Source of the DNA: Archangium lipolyticum
Lineage (GTDB): Bacteria; Myxococcota; Myxococcia; Myxococcales; Myxococcaceae
DNA: 64,000 nucleotides
NCBI RefSeq assembly: GCF_024623785.1
Contig: NZ_JANKBZ010000007.1
Span: 310,001 to 374,000 of the forward strand
Direction: 5' to 3'
Positions 10,257 through 64,000 of the stretch are shown piece by piece. Under the pieces are notes generated by a model, which was given only the letters and a program-made list of their open reading frames with translations, made no database searches and was not told where the DNA came from. The number at the start of each line of letters is the position of its first letter. Within the stretch, counting starts at the first letter, position 1. The position numbers and the translations under genes were made by a program.

Positions 10257-10784
10257 ATGAAGCGCGAGGCGGAAGGGACGGTGGGGAGGGGCTCGAACGC
10301 CCGGACCTGGCTGTTCATCACGCTGGGCGCGTGCGTGGGTCTGGCCATCGGCATCGGTGGCTTCACCTTCACCTACGCGAAGGGCTACGCGTACCTCGCC
10401 AACGATCCCGCCGCCTGCGCCAACTGCCACGTCATGCGCGAGCAGTACGAGGGTTGGCAGAAGTCGAGCCACCATGCCGTGGCCACCTGCAATGACTGCC
10501 ACACGCCCCCGGGCCTGGTCGGGAAGTACGCGACCAAGGCATCCAATGGCTTCTGGCACTCGTTCTATTTCACCACCGGCGACTTCCACGAGCCCATCCA
10601 GATCCGCCCCGGCAACCGGGAGGTGACGGAGCGGGCCTGCCGCAAGTGCCACGGCGACCTGGTGGAGCCCCTCGAGGCCTCCCACGGCGCGCCAGAGACC
10701 TCATGCCTTCGCTGCCACAACTCGGTGGGCCACCCGGAAGGGCTCGGCCGGCCGGACGCGAGGGCTCAGGAGACCCGACCATGA
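10257..10784 (+). CDS. nrfH: cytochrome c nitrite reductase small subunit NrfH
   Basis: 175 residues from the ATG at 10257 (GGAGAAGG upstream); a TTG at 10188 is an unlikely longer start. One N-terminal membrane helix (LFITLGACVGLAIGIGGFTF) anchors a tetraheme cytochrome of the NapC/NirT family with four CxxCH sites: CANCH, CNDCH, CRKCH and CLRCH. NrfH oxidises the quinol pool and passes electrons to NrfA on the outer face of the cytoplasmic membrane. The stop overlaps the nrfA start (ATGA, 10781-10784), which confirms a coupled nrfHA unit. Confidence 0.95.
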   Translation: MKREAEGTVGRGSNARTWLFITLGACVGLAIGIGGFTFTYAKGYAYLANDPAACANCHVMREQYEGWQKSSHHAVATCNDCHTPPGLVGKYATKASNGFWHSFYFTTGDFHEPIQIRPGNREVTERACRKCHGDLVEPLEASHGAPETSCLRCHNSVGHPEGLGRPDARAQETRP

Positions 10785-12205
10785 GCAACCCCACGACACA
10801 GCCGGAGCCCTGGCTCCGGAGGTACCGGCTCGTCATCCTCGCGGCGCTCGTCTCGGCCGTGGGCGCGGTGGCGGCCACCGCCCTGCTGGTGAACATCTCC
10901 GAGCGCAAGCAGGAGGCGCGCAACCCCTTCTACCGGGTGGTGGAGCTGGACGACACCATCGAGGACCCGGCCGTCTGGGGGAAGAACTTCCCCCTGCAAT
11001 ACGACGACTACAAGCGCACGGTGGACCAGGTGCGCACGAAGTACGGCGGCAGCGAGGCAGTGCCGCGCACGCCCACCTCGGTGGATCCGCGCTCGGTGGT
11101 GGCCCAGTCGCGCATCGAGGAGGATCCGCGTCTGAAGACGATGTGGGCTGGCTACGCCTTCGCCGTGGACTTCCGCGAGGAGCGCGGTCACGCGTACATG
11201 CTGGACGACCAGACGTTCACGGAGCGCCAGCACGTCACGAAGCAGCCCGGTACGTGCATGCACTGCCACGGCTCGGTCTTCCTGCCCTACAAGAAGCTGG
11301 GAGACGGCGACCTCATCAAGGGCTTCGAGAAGATGAACCAGATGCCCTACGTGGAGGCGCGCAAGCTGGTGGACCACCCGGTGGCGTGCATCGACTGCCA
11401 CGAGCCGAAGACGATGGCGCTCCGGGTGACGCGCCCCGGCTTCATCGAGGGCATGCGCGCGCTCAAGGCGGGCCAGGGCGTTCCCGACTACGACGTCAAC
11501 GCCCAGGCCACGCGCCAGGAGATGCGCTCGTACGTCTGCGGCCAGTGCCACGTCGAGTACTACTTCAAGGGTCCGGAGAAGCGGCTGACGTACCCCTGGG
11601 CCAAGGGCCTGAACATCGATGGCATCATGGCCTACTACGAGGAGAACGGGCACAAGGACTGGGTCCACGCCGAGACGGGCGCCCCGGCGCTCAAGGCCCA
11701 GCACCCCGAGTTCGAGATGTACAACCAGGGCATCCACGCCCGCTCGGGAGTGGCCTGCGCCGACTGCCACATGGCCTACAAGCGTGAGGGCGCGATGAAG
11801 ATCTCCGACCACCACGTGCGCAGCCCGCTGCTCAACATCAGCCGCGCCTGCCAGACGTGCCACAAGTGGTCCGAGGAGGAGCTGAAGGGGCGGGTGGAGA
11901 CCATCCAGGACCGGCACCACAAGCTGCGCAACACGGCGATGGACGCGCTGGTGGACCTCATCCAGGACATCAAGGAGCGCAAGCTGGCTGGTGCTACCGA
12001 CCTCCAGCTGGCCGAGGCCCGTGGCTTCCAGCGCAAGGCCCAGTTCTACCTGGACTTCGTGGAGGCGGAGAACTCCAACGGCTTCCACGCGCCCCAGGAG
12101 GCGGCCCGGATTCTCGGCGACTCCATCAATTTCTCGCGGCTCGGTCAGAACGCCCTGCGCAAGCAGTCCGCGCCGCCGCCGACGGAGGCTCACAAGGCGG
12201 AGTGA
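10781..12205 (+). CDS. nrfA: cytochrome c nitrite reductase catalytic subunit NrfA
   Basis: 474 residues. It is a pentaheme c-type cytochrome that reduces nitrite to ammonium (EC 1.7.2.2) in the periplasm, with electrons from NrfH. An N-terminal helix (VILAALVSAVGAVAATALL) serves as uncleaved anchor or signal. Five heme sites are visible: CMHCH (Cys159-His163), CIDCH, CGQCH, CADCH and CQTCH. The first corresponds to the catalytic heme, which in Escherichia coli has CxxCK; here it is CxxCH, as in some epsilonproteobacterial enzymes. The active-site Tyr is probably in CHVEYYF and the active-site His in QHPEFEM. No nrfBCD genes follow. The next gene is convergent. Confidence 0.95.
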   Translation: MSNPTTQPEPWLRRYRLVILAALVSAVGAVAATALLVNISERKQEARNPFYRVVELDDTIEDPAVWGKNFPLQYDDYKRTVDQVRTKYGGSEAVPRTPTSVDPRSVVAQSRIEEDPRLKTMWAGYAFAVDFREERGHAYMLDDQTFTERQHVTKQPGTCMHCHGSVFLPYKKLGDGDLIKGFEKMNQMPYVEARKLVDHPVACIDCHEPKTMALRVTRPGFIEGMRALKAGQGVPDYDVNAQATRQEMRSYVCGQCHVEYYFKGPEKRLTYPWAKGLNIDGIMAYYEENGHKDWVHAETGAPALKAQHPEFEMYNQGIHARSGVACADCHMAYKREGAMKISDHHVRSPLLNISRACQTCHKWSEEELKGRVETIQDRHHKLRNTAMDALVDLIQDIKERKLAGATDLQLAEARGFQRKAQFYLDFVEAENSNGFHAPQEAARILGDSINFSRLGQNALRKQSAPPPTEAHKAE

Positions 12206-60480: not shown

Positions 60481-60741
60481 ATGAGACACAGCAGGATTCA
60501 GCCTCTCGTGGCGTTGGCGGTCTCGCTGGTGTCGACGGTCGCGCTCGCCTGCCCGGATTGTCCTACGGCACAGGTGGTGAGGGCCTCCGTCGTGGGCGAT
60601 GACTTCTGGAACAACCTGGTGGTGCTGAGCGTGCCGTTCCTGCTCATCGGCGCACTCAGCGCCCTGCTGTACCGCGTGGGCCTGCCGCCGCGCGACGTGT
60701 CCGCGGCACGTGTCCGCGAGCAATCCGAAATCAGTTCGTGA
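60481..60741 (+). CDS. small membrane protein with exported Cys pair
   Basis: 86 residues from the ATG at 60481 (GAGGTCC upstream). A signal-like helix ends at VALA, followed by CPDCPTAQ and then a second helix (NLVVLSVPFLLIGALSALLYRV) and a polar tail. The CxxC just outside the membrane could bind metal or be redox active. No family is recognised. It lies 12 bases before the DUF2243 gene, so they are probably one operon. Confidence 0.65.
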   Translation: MRHSRIQPLVALAVSLVSTVALACPDCPTAQVVRASVVGDDFWNNLVVLSVPFLLIGALSALLYRVGLPPRDVSAARVREQSEISS

Positions 60742-61307: not shown

Positions 61308-62678
61308 ATGGCGAAGCGGGTCGTCATCGCGGGTGGAGGGTTGGCGGGGCTCACGTGCGCCAAGGCCCTCGTGGATCAGGGCTTCACGGTGACGGTCATC
61401 GAAGGCCTGCCGTACCTCGGCGGACGTGCCTCCACCTTTCGCGACAAGGACGGAGACTGGGTGGAGCAGGGGCTGCACCTCTTCCTCGGTGTGTACTCCG
61501 AGCTCAAGGCGCTCCTGCGGGACGTCGGGAGTGAGCCGGACGCCGCGCTCTTCTGGATGCAGGAGGTGCGGCTGCAGGACCCCGAGGGAGCGCAGGCGAC
61601 GTTCTTCATCAACCCGCTGCGCTCGCCCGTGAAGACGGTGGTGAGCATCGCGGGGCAGAACGATTACCTCGGGCCTCTGGACAAGCTGTCGCTGGTGCCG
61701 ATCGCCGCGCCGGGCGTGCTCTCCATGGAGCATCTGCGCGCCCAGCACGATGGCGAGACCATCGTCGACTGGTGGGAGCGCGTGAGCGGGGACGTCACCG
61801 TGCTGGAGCGCTTCATCCGTCCCTTCTGCCGCGGCATCCAGTTCAGCGAGCCCGAGCAGTTCTCCGCCTACAACTTCCTCGGGTGGATCCACCACATCGC
61901 CTACGACCTGCCCCATGCGCTGCTGGGGGGCTATCGCGGCGCGCGCGAAGAGGTCTTCTTCCAGCCGCTCGCGAGATACTTGAAGGAGCGGGGCGCGACG
62001 ATCCACACCGGCGTGAAGCTGCGGGAGATCCTCTACACCTCCGGGAAGGAGGGCGGGGCGGTGGACGGTTTCGTCCTCGAGAACGGAGAGCGGCTCCAGG
62101 CGGACGTGTACGTGGCGGCGATTCCCGTCTGGGCGCTGGTGCCGCTGGTGCCGGCGCCGCTGCGGCGGGAGCCCTTCTTCGAGCGGCTCGCCGCGCTGCC
62201 GGTGGCCCCCGCCATCTCCGTGCAGCTCTGGTTCGACCGCGACGTCGTGGGCGGCACCGAGGCCTTCACCCTCGTGGCGCACAGCCATGCGTGCGTCTAC
62301 CAGGACCAGTCGCGCAACGCCTACCCCTATGGCGAGGGCAGCCGCCTGTCGGTCATCGTCTCGCCCGCGGATGATCTGCTCGAGGACCCGGACGAGGCGC
62401 TGGTGCGGCGCGTGTGCGAGTCGCTCGGCAAGGTGCAGCCCGCGATTCGCGAGGCGAAGGTGTTGAAGTCCGTGGTGCTCAAGCACCGCAAGCACCTGGT
62501 GCGCCCGCTGCCGGGGGCTATGTCCCAGCGTCCGGCCCAGGCCACCCCCGTGCCCAACCTCTTCCTCGCGGGAGACTGGACGCAGCAGCCCTTCTTCGGC
62601 AGCCAGGAAGGCGCCGTCCGGGGCGGCAATGCGTGTGCGCGGGAGATCCTCCGCTCGCTCTCCGAGCGGAAGGGCTGA
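61308..62678 (+). CDS. carotenoid-desaturase-like FAD oxidoreductase
   Basis: 456 residues with GGGAGG before the ATG. The dinucleotide motif VVIAGGGLAGLTCAKALVD, then VIEGLPYLGGRASTF, and the C-terminal flavin segment LFLAGDWTQQPFFGSQEGAVRGG match phytoene/zeta-carotene desaturases of the plant-cyanobacterial type and the hydroxysqualene dehydroxylase HpnE. It probably acts on a hydrophobic polyene or isoprenoid at the membrane. No phytoene or squalene synthase lies nearby, so the substrate is open. It is last in a same-strand run from 60481, 20 bases after the DUF2243 gene. Confidence 0.8.
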   Translation: MAKRVVIAGGGLAGLTCAKALVDQGFTVTVIEGLPYLGGRASTFRDKDGDWVEQGLHLFLGVYSELKALLRDVGSEPDAALFWMQEVRLQDPEGAQATFFINPLRSPVKTVVSIAGQNDYLGPLDKLSLVPIAAPGVLSMEHLRAQHDGETIVDWWERVSGDVTVLERFIRPFCRGIQFSEPEQFSAYNFLGWIHHIAYDLPHALLGGYRGAREEVFFQPLARYLKERGATIHTGVKLREILYTSGKEGGAVDGFVLENGERLQADVYVAAIPVWALVPLVPAPLRREPFFERLAALPVAPAISVQLWFDRDVVGGTEAFTLVAHSHACVYQDQSRNAYPYGEGSRLSVIVSPADDLLEDPDEALVRRVCESLGKVQPAIREAKVLKSVVLKHRKHLVRPLPGAMSQRPAQATPVPNLFLAGDWTQQPFFGSQEGAVRGGNACAREILRSLSERKG

Positions 62679-62783
62679 GCCACCACGCCCGCCGTGTCCG
62701 GCATCACACGGCGCGCCCGCGCTCTCCACCTCCATCAGACACGACGTCCTCCTTCGAGGACGTCCGCGCCCATGGAGAGAGCG

Positions 62784-62990
62784 ATGCGCAAGACCGACAA
62801 GAAGAAGACCTTCATCGACTACGAGCTGCCCACGAAGGCCCTGGAGCAGGTGCGGGGTGGCCGCGAGAGGGTCACCACGTTGGCGGAGGGTGAGGAGACT
62901 GGCTCCGTCACCACCCAGGCCGTGGGCGAGGAGGGCGGCTGTGGCCGCTTCACGACAGAGGCCGTGGGCGAGGAGAGCGGCTCGTATTGA
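62784..62990 (+). CDS. graspetide-like (plesiocin-type) RiPP precursor peptide
   Basis: 68 residues from the ATG at 62784, five bases after GGAGAG; an ATG at 62772 would add four residues. Residues 1-26 (MRKTDKKKTFIDYELPTKAL ... EQVRGG) look like a leader ending in a double Gly. The rest consists of three repeats of TTxxxxEE: TTLAEGEE (31-38), TTQAVGEE (43-50) and TTEAVGEE (57-64), joined by short Gly/Ser linkers, with one Cys at residue 53. TTxxxxEE is the defining core of plesiocin, an omega-ester peptide in which an ATP-grasp ligase joins Thr hydroxyls to Glu side chains to give a protease inhibitor. No ATP-grasp gene is in the window. Confidence 0.7.
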   Translation: MRKTDKKKTFIDYELPTKALEQVRGGRERVTTLAEGEETGSVTTQAVGEEGGCGRFTTEAVGEESGSY

Positions 62991-63001: not shown

Positions 63002-64000
63002 TCAGCGGCAGCCGGTGACGGAGGGCGGGAGCTTGTAGCTGAAGCGATCGAACACTCCACGCCGCCGCCATCCGTCCCAGCGGATTTCCACCGCGTGCCG
63101 CAGGTCGCGCTCGAAGCTATCGGCGAGCGCGCGGGCGAGCTGGGGATCCTCGACGACGAGGGCCCCCTCCTCGAGCATGGCGTTCGACTGGGGCTCCAGG
63201 TGGGTGGAGCCCACGGCCGTCAGCCGTTCGTCCACGAGCAGGGTGCTGGCGTGCAGGGAAGCCGGTTGGTACTCCCAGAGCCGGACGCCGTTGGCCAGCA
63301 GGCGCTCATAGGTGGCGCGCTGCGCGGCGAGCACGCCTCGGGAGGCTCCGTGGAACAGGCCGGGCACCAGGATGCGCACGTCCACACCTTCCTGGGCCTT
63401 GCGGATGAGCGTGTCCACGGTGGCGGCGGTGGGGATGAAGCAGGCGTTGGTGAGCCACAGGCGCCGCCGGGCGGAGGCAGCCAGCACCTGCACCATGCGC
63501 TCGGAGTGGCTGAGCGTGGGGGAGCCGGAGCTCGCGACGAAGCCGGCGCGGGCCTCGCCCTGGGGCTCGAGTCTGGGAAAGGCCGACTCCGGGAGCAGCC
63601 CGCCGCCCGCCTCCAGCCAGTCCCTGGCGAAGGCCTGCTGCAACTGGCGCACGGCCGGGCCCCGCACGTGGACGTAGGTGTCCCGCCACGCCTCCGTGCG
63701 CTCCTTTCCGCCCCGCCACCAGGACGGCCCCACGCCGGAGCCGCCGGTGAGGCCGCTGCGTCCATCGCGGATGACGAGCTGGCGGTGGTTGCGCGCCTTC
63801 AGCCGCTCGTCATCGAACACCACCGTCTCCCCGATGAGGGGCCGGAAGGTGCGCACCTCGCATCCGGCCTGGACGAGCCGTGACTGCACCTCGTCCACGA
63901 AGTCCGGGCTCTCGAAGTCATCCACCAGCACGCGGCACACCACGCCCGGTGGGCGTTCGGCGAGCGCTCGCAGGAGACGCTCCGAGGCCTCGCCCGGCTG
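63002..64000 (-). CDS. phospholipase D-fold protein lacking both catalytic Lys, N-terminus missing
   Basis: The frame is open to the window edge, so the N-terminus is missing; a GTG at 63943 is an internal candidate only. Two HKD-like motifs of the PLD/cardiolipin synthase superfamily are visible. The first reads NHRQLVIRDGRSGLTGGSG (His codon 63785-63787) and the second LHASTLLVDERLTAVGSTHL (His codon 63251-63253). In both, the Lys two residues after His is replaced (Gln and Ser); the Asp residues remain. Segments RLWLTNACFIPTAATVDTLI and SNAMLEEGALVVED are typical of the family. It ends 12 bases from the convergent peptide precursor gene. Confidence 0.82.
   Translation of the reverse strand, partial: QPGEASERLLRALAERPPGVVCRVLVDDFESPDFVDEVQSRLVQAGCEVRTFRPLIGETVVFDDERLKARNHRQLVIRDGRSGLTGGSGVGPSWWRGGKERTEAWRDTYVHVRGPAVRQLQQAFARDWLEAGGGLLPESAFPRLEPQGEARAGFVASSGSPTLSHSERMVQVLAASARRRLWLTNACFIPTAATVDTLIRKAQEGVDVRILVPGLFHGASRGVLAAQRATYERLLANGVRLWEYQPASLHASTLLVDERLTAVGSTHLEPQSNAMLEEGALVVEDPQLARALADSFERDLRHAVEIRWDGWRRRGVFDRFSYKLPPSVTGCR

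Follow-up and report, generated by a model that had tools for sequence, protein, structure and literature searches.

The gene P0001, which lies in a 64,000-nucleotide stretch of the Archangium source genome G000 (contig C7, 310001-374000; hereafter the window), probably encodes the precursor of a group 2 (plesiocin-type) graspetide, and the enzyme that modifies it is most likely an ATP-grasp ligase, P0002, encoded on a different contig (C18) and acting in trans. The analysis establishes the gene and its conservation, the ligase, the similarity of their leader and core motifs, the co-occurrence of orphan and ligase, and the absence of linkage between them. Under the proposed mechanism, the C18 ligase would most likely recognize the FIDYELP leader of P0001 and, by analogy with plesiocin, phosphorylate the core glutamates with ATP and join them to threonine hydroxyls. 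The predicted product has two esters in each TTxxxxEE unit, six in all, forming three hairpins. The same enzyme would also serve a divergent one-repeat precursor at its own locus. The double glycine would then probably be cut by a C39-type peptidase/transporter that may also export the product, which would probably inhibit serine proteases. Plesiocin itself is a serine protease inhibitor whose potency climbs with the number of cyclized motifs (PMC13097080), and distributive action is described for PsnB and AMdnC (PMC5934393).

The core motif of plesiocin is TTxxxxEE. Translation of P0001 (MRKTDKKKTFIDYELPTKALEQVRGGRERVTTLAEGEETGSVTTQAVGEEGGCGRFTTEAVGEESGSY) bears out the original prediction of a 68-residue peptide with a Lys-rich N terminus, a double glycine, and three such repeats (Table 1). 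Searching the 12.6-Mb genome with a degenerate DNA pattern that encodes T[TS]xAxGEE gave eight matches, compared with three for a reversed-pattern control. Three of the eight are the P0001 repeats, clustered within about 100 bp, and one, at C18:147053, lies beside the C18 ligase, so that chance is a poor explanation. Searches of P0001 against Pfam and NCBIfam gave sub-threshold matches only, ComC and bactofencin A among them, and there was no match in the PDB at E ≤ 10 or among plasmids at E ≤ 1e-3.

A profile built from five orthologs and run on 96 genomes of the family (Myxococcaceae) found full-length relatives of P0001 in seven: G000, G001, G003, G005, G018, G084, and G086 (E 4.6e-26 or better). 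Matches at 1e-5 occurred in 21 of the 96 genomes, the other 14 being weaker (best 8.3e-11) and mostly longer repeat proteins. No variation occurs among the seven orthologs in the F-I-x-Y-E-L-P leader motif, the GG, or the three TT...GEE units, but the repeat alanine and the cysteine do vary; dN/dS is 0.21-0.65 over the 21 pairs. The unique cysteine to which attention had been drawn does not stand as a feature, and a role for it in the product was rejected, because the place and number of cysteines vary among the orthologs.

Table 1. Parts of P0001, its neighbors, and the PsnB-type ligases of the genome (window coordinates unless a contig is named)
Feature	Position	Strand	Basis or remark
Orphan graspetide precursor gene P0001, 68 aa	62784..62990	+	Translation, orthologs, dN/dS
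GGAGAG, likely ribosome-binding site	62774..62779	+	Sequence; ATG 4 nt further on
Leader region, residues 1-26, GG at end	62784..62861	+	Alignments
FIDYELP, conserved leader motif	62811..62831	+	Resembles PFIKFALP of the C18 precursor; putative ligase recognition site
Double glycine, residues 25-26	62856..62861	+	Possible C39-peptidase cleavage site
Core repeat 1, TTLAEGEE, residues 31-38	62874..62897	+	
Core repeat 2, TTQAVGEE, residues 43-50	62910..62933	+	
Core repeat 3, TTEAVGEE, residues 57-64	62952..62975	+	
FAD-dependent amine-oxidase/phytoene-desaturase-like protein	61308..62678	+	Neighbor, unlikely partner
PLD-fold (cardiolipin-synthase-like) protein	63002..64000	-	Extends beyond window edge; neighbor, unlikely partner
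P0002, C18 ligase	C18:145911-146921	-	Best candidate; contig other than that of P0001
PsnB-like ligase	C8:391409-392263		53-54% identical to PsnB
PsnB-like ligase	C17:160915-161766		53-54% identical to PsnB

Graspetides are defined by rings whose formation depends on ATP-grasp enzymes, and group 2 has plesiocin as its prototype (PMC9576775). As in that group, P0001 has a repeated TTxxxxEE core (three units, with TT and GEE invariant in the seven orthologs) and a conserved leader motif ahead of it (FIxYELP in 7/7), and its genome encodes PsnB-type ligases (on C18, C8, and C17). A ligase adjoining the precursor, which is usual in the group and lies outside its chemical definition, was not found within the window or the 16 kb past it. 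On the strength of the shared core motif and the PsnB-type ligases, the original assignment to the plesiocin type holds at the level of sequence. The published graspetide leader motif is Phhx(1,2)h (PMC8939145), and the P0001 orthologs differ from it in having T or S in place of the P. Like microviridin, whose rings are also made by ATP-grasp ligases, P0001 has a GG in its leader, but comparison with a microviridin-type precursor from a separate cluster on C8 showed that it has neither the PFFARxL leader nor the KYPSD-type core.

The statement that no ATP-grasp gene lies near the precursor was confirmed with two home-made HMMs, which found no ATP-grasp ORF (ORFs of at least 80 codons, E ≤ 1) either in the window or over the 16 kb that follow, and genome-wide ATP-grasp searches gave no match on C7. 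A ligase just past the right edge of the window, one of the locations first suggested, was rejected, the 16 kb beyond having been read without finding any. A search of the whole genome for ligases of the PsnB/MvdCD type had also been proposed, and six graspetide-type ATP-grasp genes were found, on C8, C37, C17, and C18. A genome devoid of graspetide-type ligases had been named as grounds for refutation, and that case does not apply.

Of these, P0002 is the best candidate. Its best PDB match is PsnB (7drm; E 3.2e-36), to which it is 33% identical, and its ELNSS and GIDIK motifs align with ELNAS and GMDIK of PsnB. The best NCBIfam family is TIGR04187 (ATP-grasp ribosomal peptide maturase), with a score of 107 bits that falls far below the 350-bit cut-off. 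In a Foldseek search with the predicted structure (mean pLDDT 80.8), the first 14 matches were PsnB chains (TM 0.69-0.74 by query length; 27-31% identity), and microviridin-type ligases and RimK ranked behind them. The C18-type ligases form one clade (100/99) in a tree of the ligases, apart from the clade that holds PsnB and its myxococcal relatives (100/100); many other rows of this tree are long-branched and their placement is unsure. PsnB fragments searched against 195 genomes of the phylum for Plesiocystis gave a best identity of 55%. Compared with plesiocin (PsnA2/PsnB of Plesiocystis pacifica) at the motif level, P0001 is alike in having a repeated TTxxxxEE core behind a leader and in that PsnB ranks first for its candidate ligase in both sequence and fold. 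It is unlike plesiocin in not adjoining this candidate, which belongs to another clade, and in having three repeats as opposed to four units with two esters each (PMC12291112).

A second line of evidence comes from the C18 locus itself, where a precursor divergent from P0002 (VTKTRKGPPFIKFALPKPRKPADKQPSKPDKPKPTDRLTTMAVGEEGGSNR) carries one repeat, TTMAVGEE, behind the leader PFIKFALP and is conserved in G003, G001, and G005. A paralogous precursor with the same leader had been anticipated; this one has a similar leader but lacks the GG and the 'EQVRGG' part, so that recognition of the two need not be identical. A TTxAxGEE ORF was present at 24 of 25 C18-type ligase loci, and 20 of these 24 linked precursors (the exceptions being L080, L081, L082, and L126) have the leader motif [PSQ]F[ITV]x[YF]x[LVTM]P. 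When all loci with ligase matches are taken together, such an ORF lies within the fetched stretch at 28 of 31; it was not seen at L122, where the ligase is at the contig start, or at L084 and L085. In all seven genomes with the orphan, the linked precursor has one or two full repeats and no GG directly before the core. A leader-only profile, from which the four leaders lacking the motif were left out, returned the linked C18 precursor from the genome at E 4.1e-6; the orphan, whose leader motif is short, ranked third, its E of 4.1 falling short of significance when taken alone. P0001 resembles the C18-type-linked TTxAxGEE precursors of Myxococcus, Pyxidicoccus, and other Myxococcaceae, at whose loci the ligases are 61-94% identical to P0002, in the core unit and, for most of them, in the leader. 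It is unlike them in being unlinked and in having three repeats, whereas they adjoin their ligase and have 1-2 or 5-18.

The distribution of the two genes points in the same direction. A C18-type ligase was found in 24 of the 96 family genomes (E ≤ 1e-120) and in all seven that bear the orphan, a co-occurrence with a hypergeometric P of 2.9e-5, not corrected for kinship. Because the seven genomes belong to three genera, this association rests on few independent events. Within the genus Archangium, orphan and ligase are both present in four of six genomes and neither was found in G002 or G004, for which all first-look candidates were scored. The two genes are on different contigs in G000, G005, and G086, and elsewhere they are separated by 669 kb (G003), 5.09 Mb (G001), about 91 kb (G018), and 152 kb (G084). 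The suggestion that the ligase is shared in trans thus draws support from the leader match, from genome co-occurrence, and from the elimination of other enzymes.

The strongest of the alternatives, although it is unlikely, is that P0001 is modified by a PsnB-like ligase of the genome other than P0002, the one on C8 or the one on C17. Both are closer to PsnB than is the C18 ligase and could compete with it, and the 1.5 kb around the one on C8 showed no TTxxxGEE precursor. However, PsnB-like ligases (51-55% identical to PsnB), although present in 26 genomes by tally, occur in just two of the seven orphan genomes (P 0.61, with N taken as 96 although the search results do not name every genome lacking a match), and G002 and G004 have them without the orphan. 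Scoring the best 12 of the 25-33 first-look candidates per genome revealed no PsnB-type ligase besides the C18 type (E ≤ 1e-20) in G001, G005, G018, and G084, which do have the orphan; G086 gave one further match, of 31% identity (best 12 of 25-34 candidates). The same search recovered the C18-type ligase (33-40% identical to the query) in 24/24 genomes having it, and a closer relative of PsnB is therefore unlikely to have been missed, though this is no proof. Leaders also speak against the PsnB-like enzymes: a TTxxxxEE-type precursor was seen at 11 of the 15 PsnB-like loci read (four had no visible precursor), in every case with an LFV or LFI leader, and the precursor at the C17 locus has another leader as well.

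It is very unlikely that the precursor is a relic or remains unmodified. The lack of a linked ligase would fit such a reading, but the seven orthologs have kept the leader motif and core residues invariant at the dN/dS values given above, and orphan and ligase are absent together in G002 and G004. Still less probable is modification by the C8 pair of MvdD-like genes, from the microviridin cluster, or by the C37 ligase. These are graspetide-type ligases of the same genome, and the one member of the pair that was scanned had TIGR04184 (MvdD) as its best family, just under the cut-off; but the pair adjoins its own precursor, with leader PFFARLL and core KYPSD, the C37 ligase adjoins its own GG peptide, and none of the three belongs to the C18-type or the PsnB clade.

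The orphan occurs in two unrelated chromosomal settings, one in Archangium (with DUF2243 and PLD genes) and one in G018, G084, and G086, and apart from weak SDR matches of 27-29% none of the window neighbors tested turned up in both, which makes no neighbor a likely partner. A new pathway involving the adjacent flavoprotein or PLD protein, which had also been envisaged, is scarcely credible and both proteins were rejected as partners on synteny: the flavoprotein adjoins the orphan in G000 and G003 but was not found there in the other two Archangium orphan genomes, G005 and G001, the orphan loci of G018, G084, and G086 showed neither protein (by locus, no flavoprotein at L033, L036, L132, L133, and L034, and no PLD protein at L132, L133, and L034), and G002 and G004 keep DUF2243 and PLD at the Archangium site with precursor matches no better than E 0.66. 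Also in the window, a small ORF at 60481 gave sub-threshold NCBIfam matches only (best E 0.007; 16.5 bits, with the cut-off at 175), which we take to reflect signal-peptide similarity.

The repeat had been described as myxobacterial, and it does occur in myxobacteria, but it was also found in Planctomycetota, cyanobacteria, Pseudomonadota, and Bacillota. A scan of genome contigs revealed 31 loci with TTxAxGEE repeats, up to 20 per protein. At 25 of these the precursor ORF has an ATP-grasp ORF as its neighbor (≤476 nt stop to stop), counting that of L042, which runs off the end of its contig and has a weak score (E 5e-4). Those lacking such a neighbor are the orphan orthologs L033, L034, and L036, together with L040, L043, and L059, the last with only about 7 kb of sequence on one side. 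At L043, from a planctomycete metagenome-assembled genome (G196), the precursor has the leader SFVNYSLP and no ligase was found within 10 kb; a ligase 45% identical to P0002 is on another contig, with no TTxAxGEE within 10 kb of it. The genome of L040 (G195) has a ligase of 34% identity roughly 88 kb off, and that of L059 (G197) a partial ligase match of 38%. Since all three records come from metagenome assembly, they may contain binning errors.

The TTxAxGEEG unit is found on unrelated N termini in several phyla, some of them, by eye, Sec/Tat-like or long N-terminal regions. The evidence is evenly balanced as to whether split graspetide systems are general and overlooked, with a single PsnB-type ligase selecting dispersed precursors by a short FIxY-type leader tag, with multiple origins (the planctomycete of L043 being the further case), and with TTxAxGEEG as a portable ester-hairpin module. 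Two cyanobacterial proteins (L048:9200-10291 and L055:9449-10303) have in common an N-terminal region of ~110 residues, followed by at least 12 TTxAxGEE units, with a ligase downstream. Repeats at L053, L057, L035, and L040 (Neomegalonema, planctomycetes) stand behind what appear by eye to be Sec- or Tat-like signals. The leader KKKxLFIExLExRxS precedes the repeats in both a Sporosarcina metagenome-assembled genome (L045:9965-10255) and a planctomycete (L061:7090-8739), and in one from Myxococcales two ATP-grasp ORFs (L047:8322-9296 and 10352-11344, - strand) surround a single 17-repeat precursor.

Should modification in trans hold true, a single enzyme and a short tag would yield several protease inhibitors from dispersed genes, an arrangement that would be useful for engineering. 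A likeness exists in the prochlorosins, where one enzyme, ProcM, modifies precursors whose genes lie in other parts of the genome; these are unlike P0001 in being lanthipeptides, with other chemistry and many precursors. Among open-licence papers we found no description of unlinked graspetide precursors. Graspetide mining has taken the first and second neighbors of ATP-grasp genes as initial candidates (PMC8939145), and unlinked precursors are therefore easily missed.

The genome holds further graspetide loci. On C8, a microviridin-type precursor with three KYPSD cores (L007:2911-3129, - strand) lies beside the MvdD-like pair, the nearer member of which is ~3.4 kb from the PsnB-like ligase of that contig. 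A small ORF on C37 (L009:1922-2458, - strand), with VTGG and a Thr/Asp-rich tail, adjoins a lone MvdD-like ATP-grasp ligase. On C17, a peptide with a GG leader (L150:4494-4676, - strand), ending in ITTFACGEEPPGCQAC, adjoins the PsnB-like ligase, a C39-peptidase ABC transporter, and a VKOR/thioredoxin-like protein.
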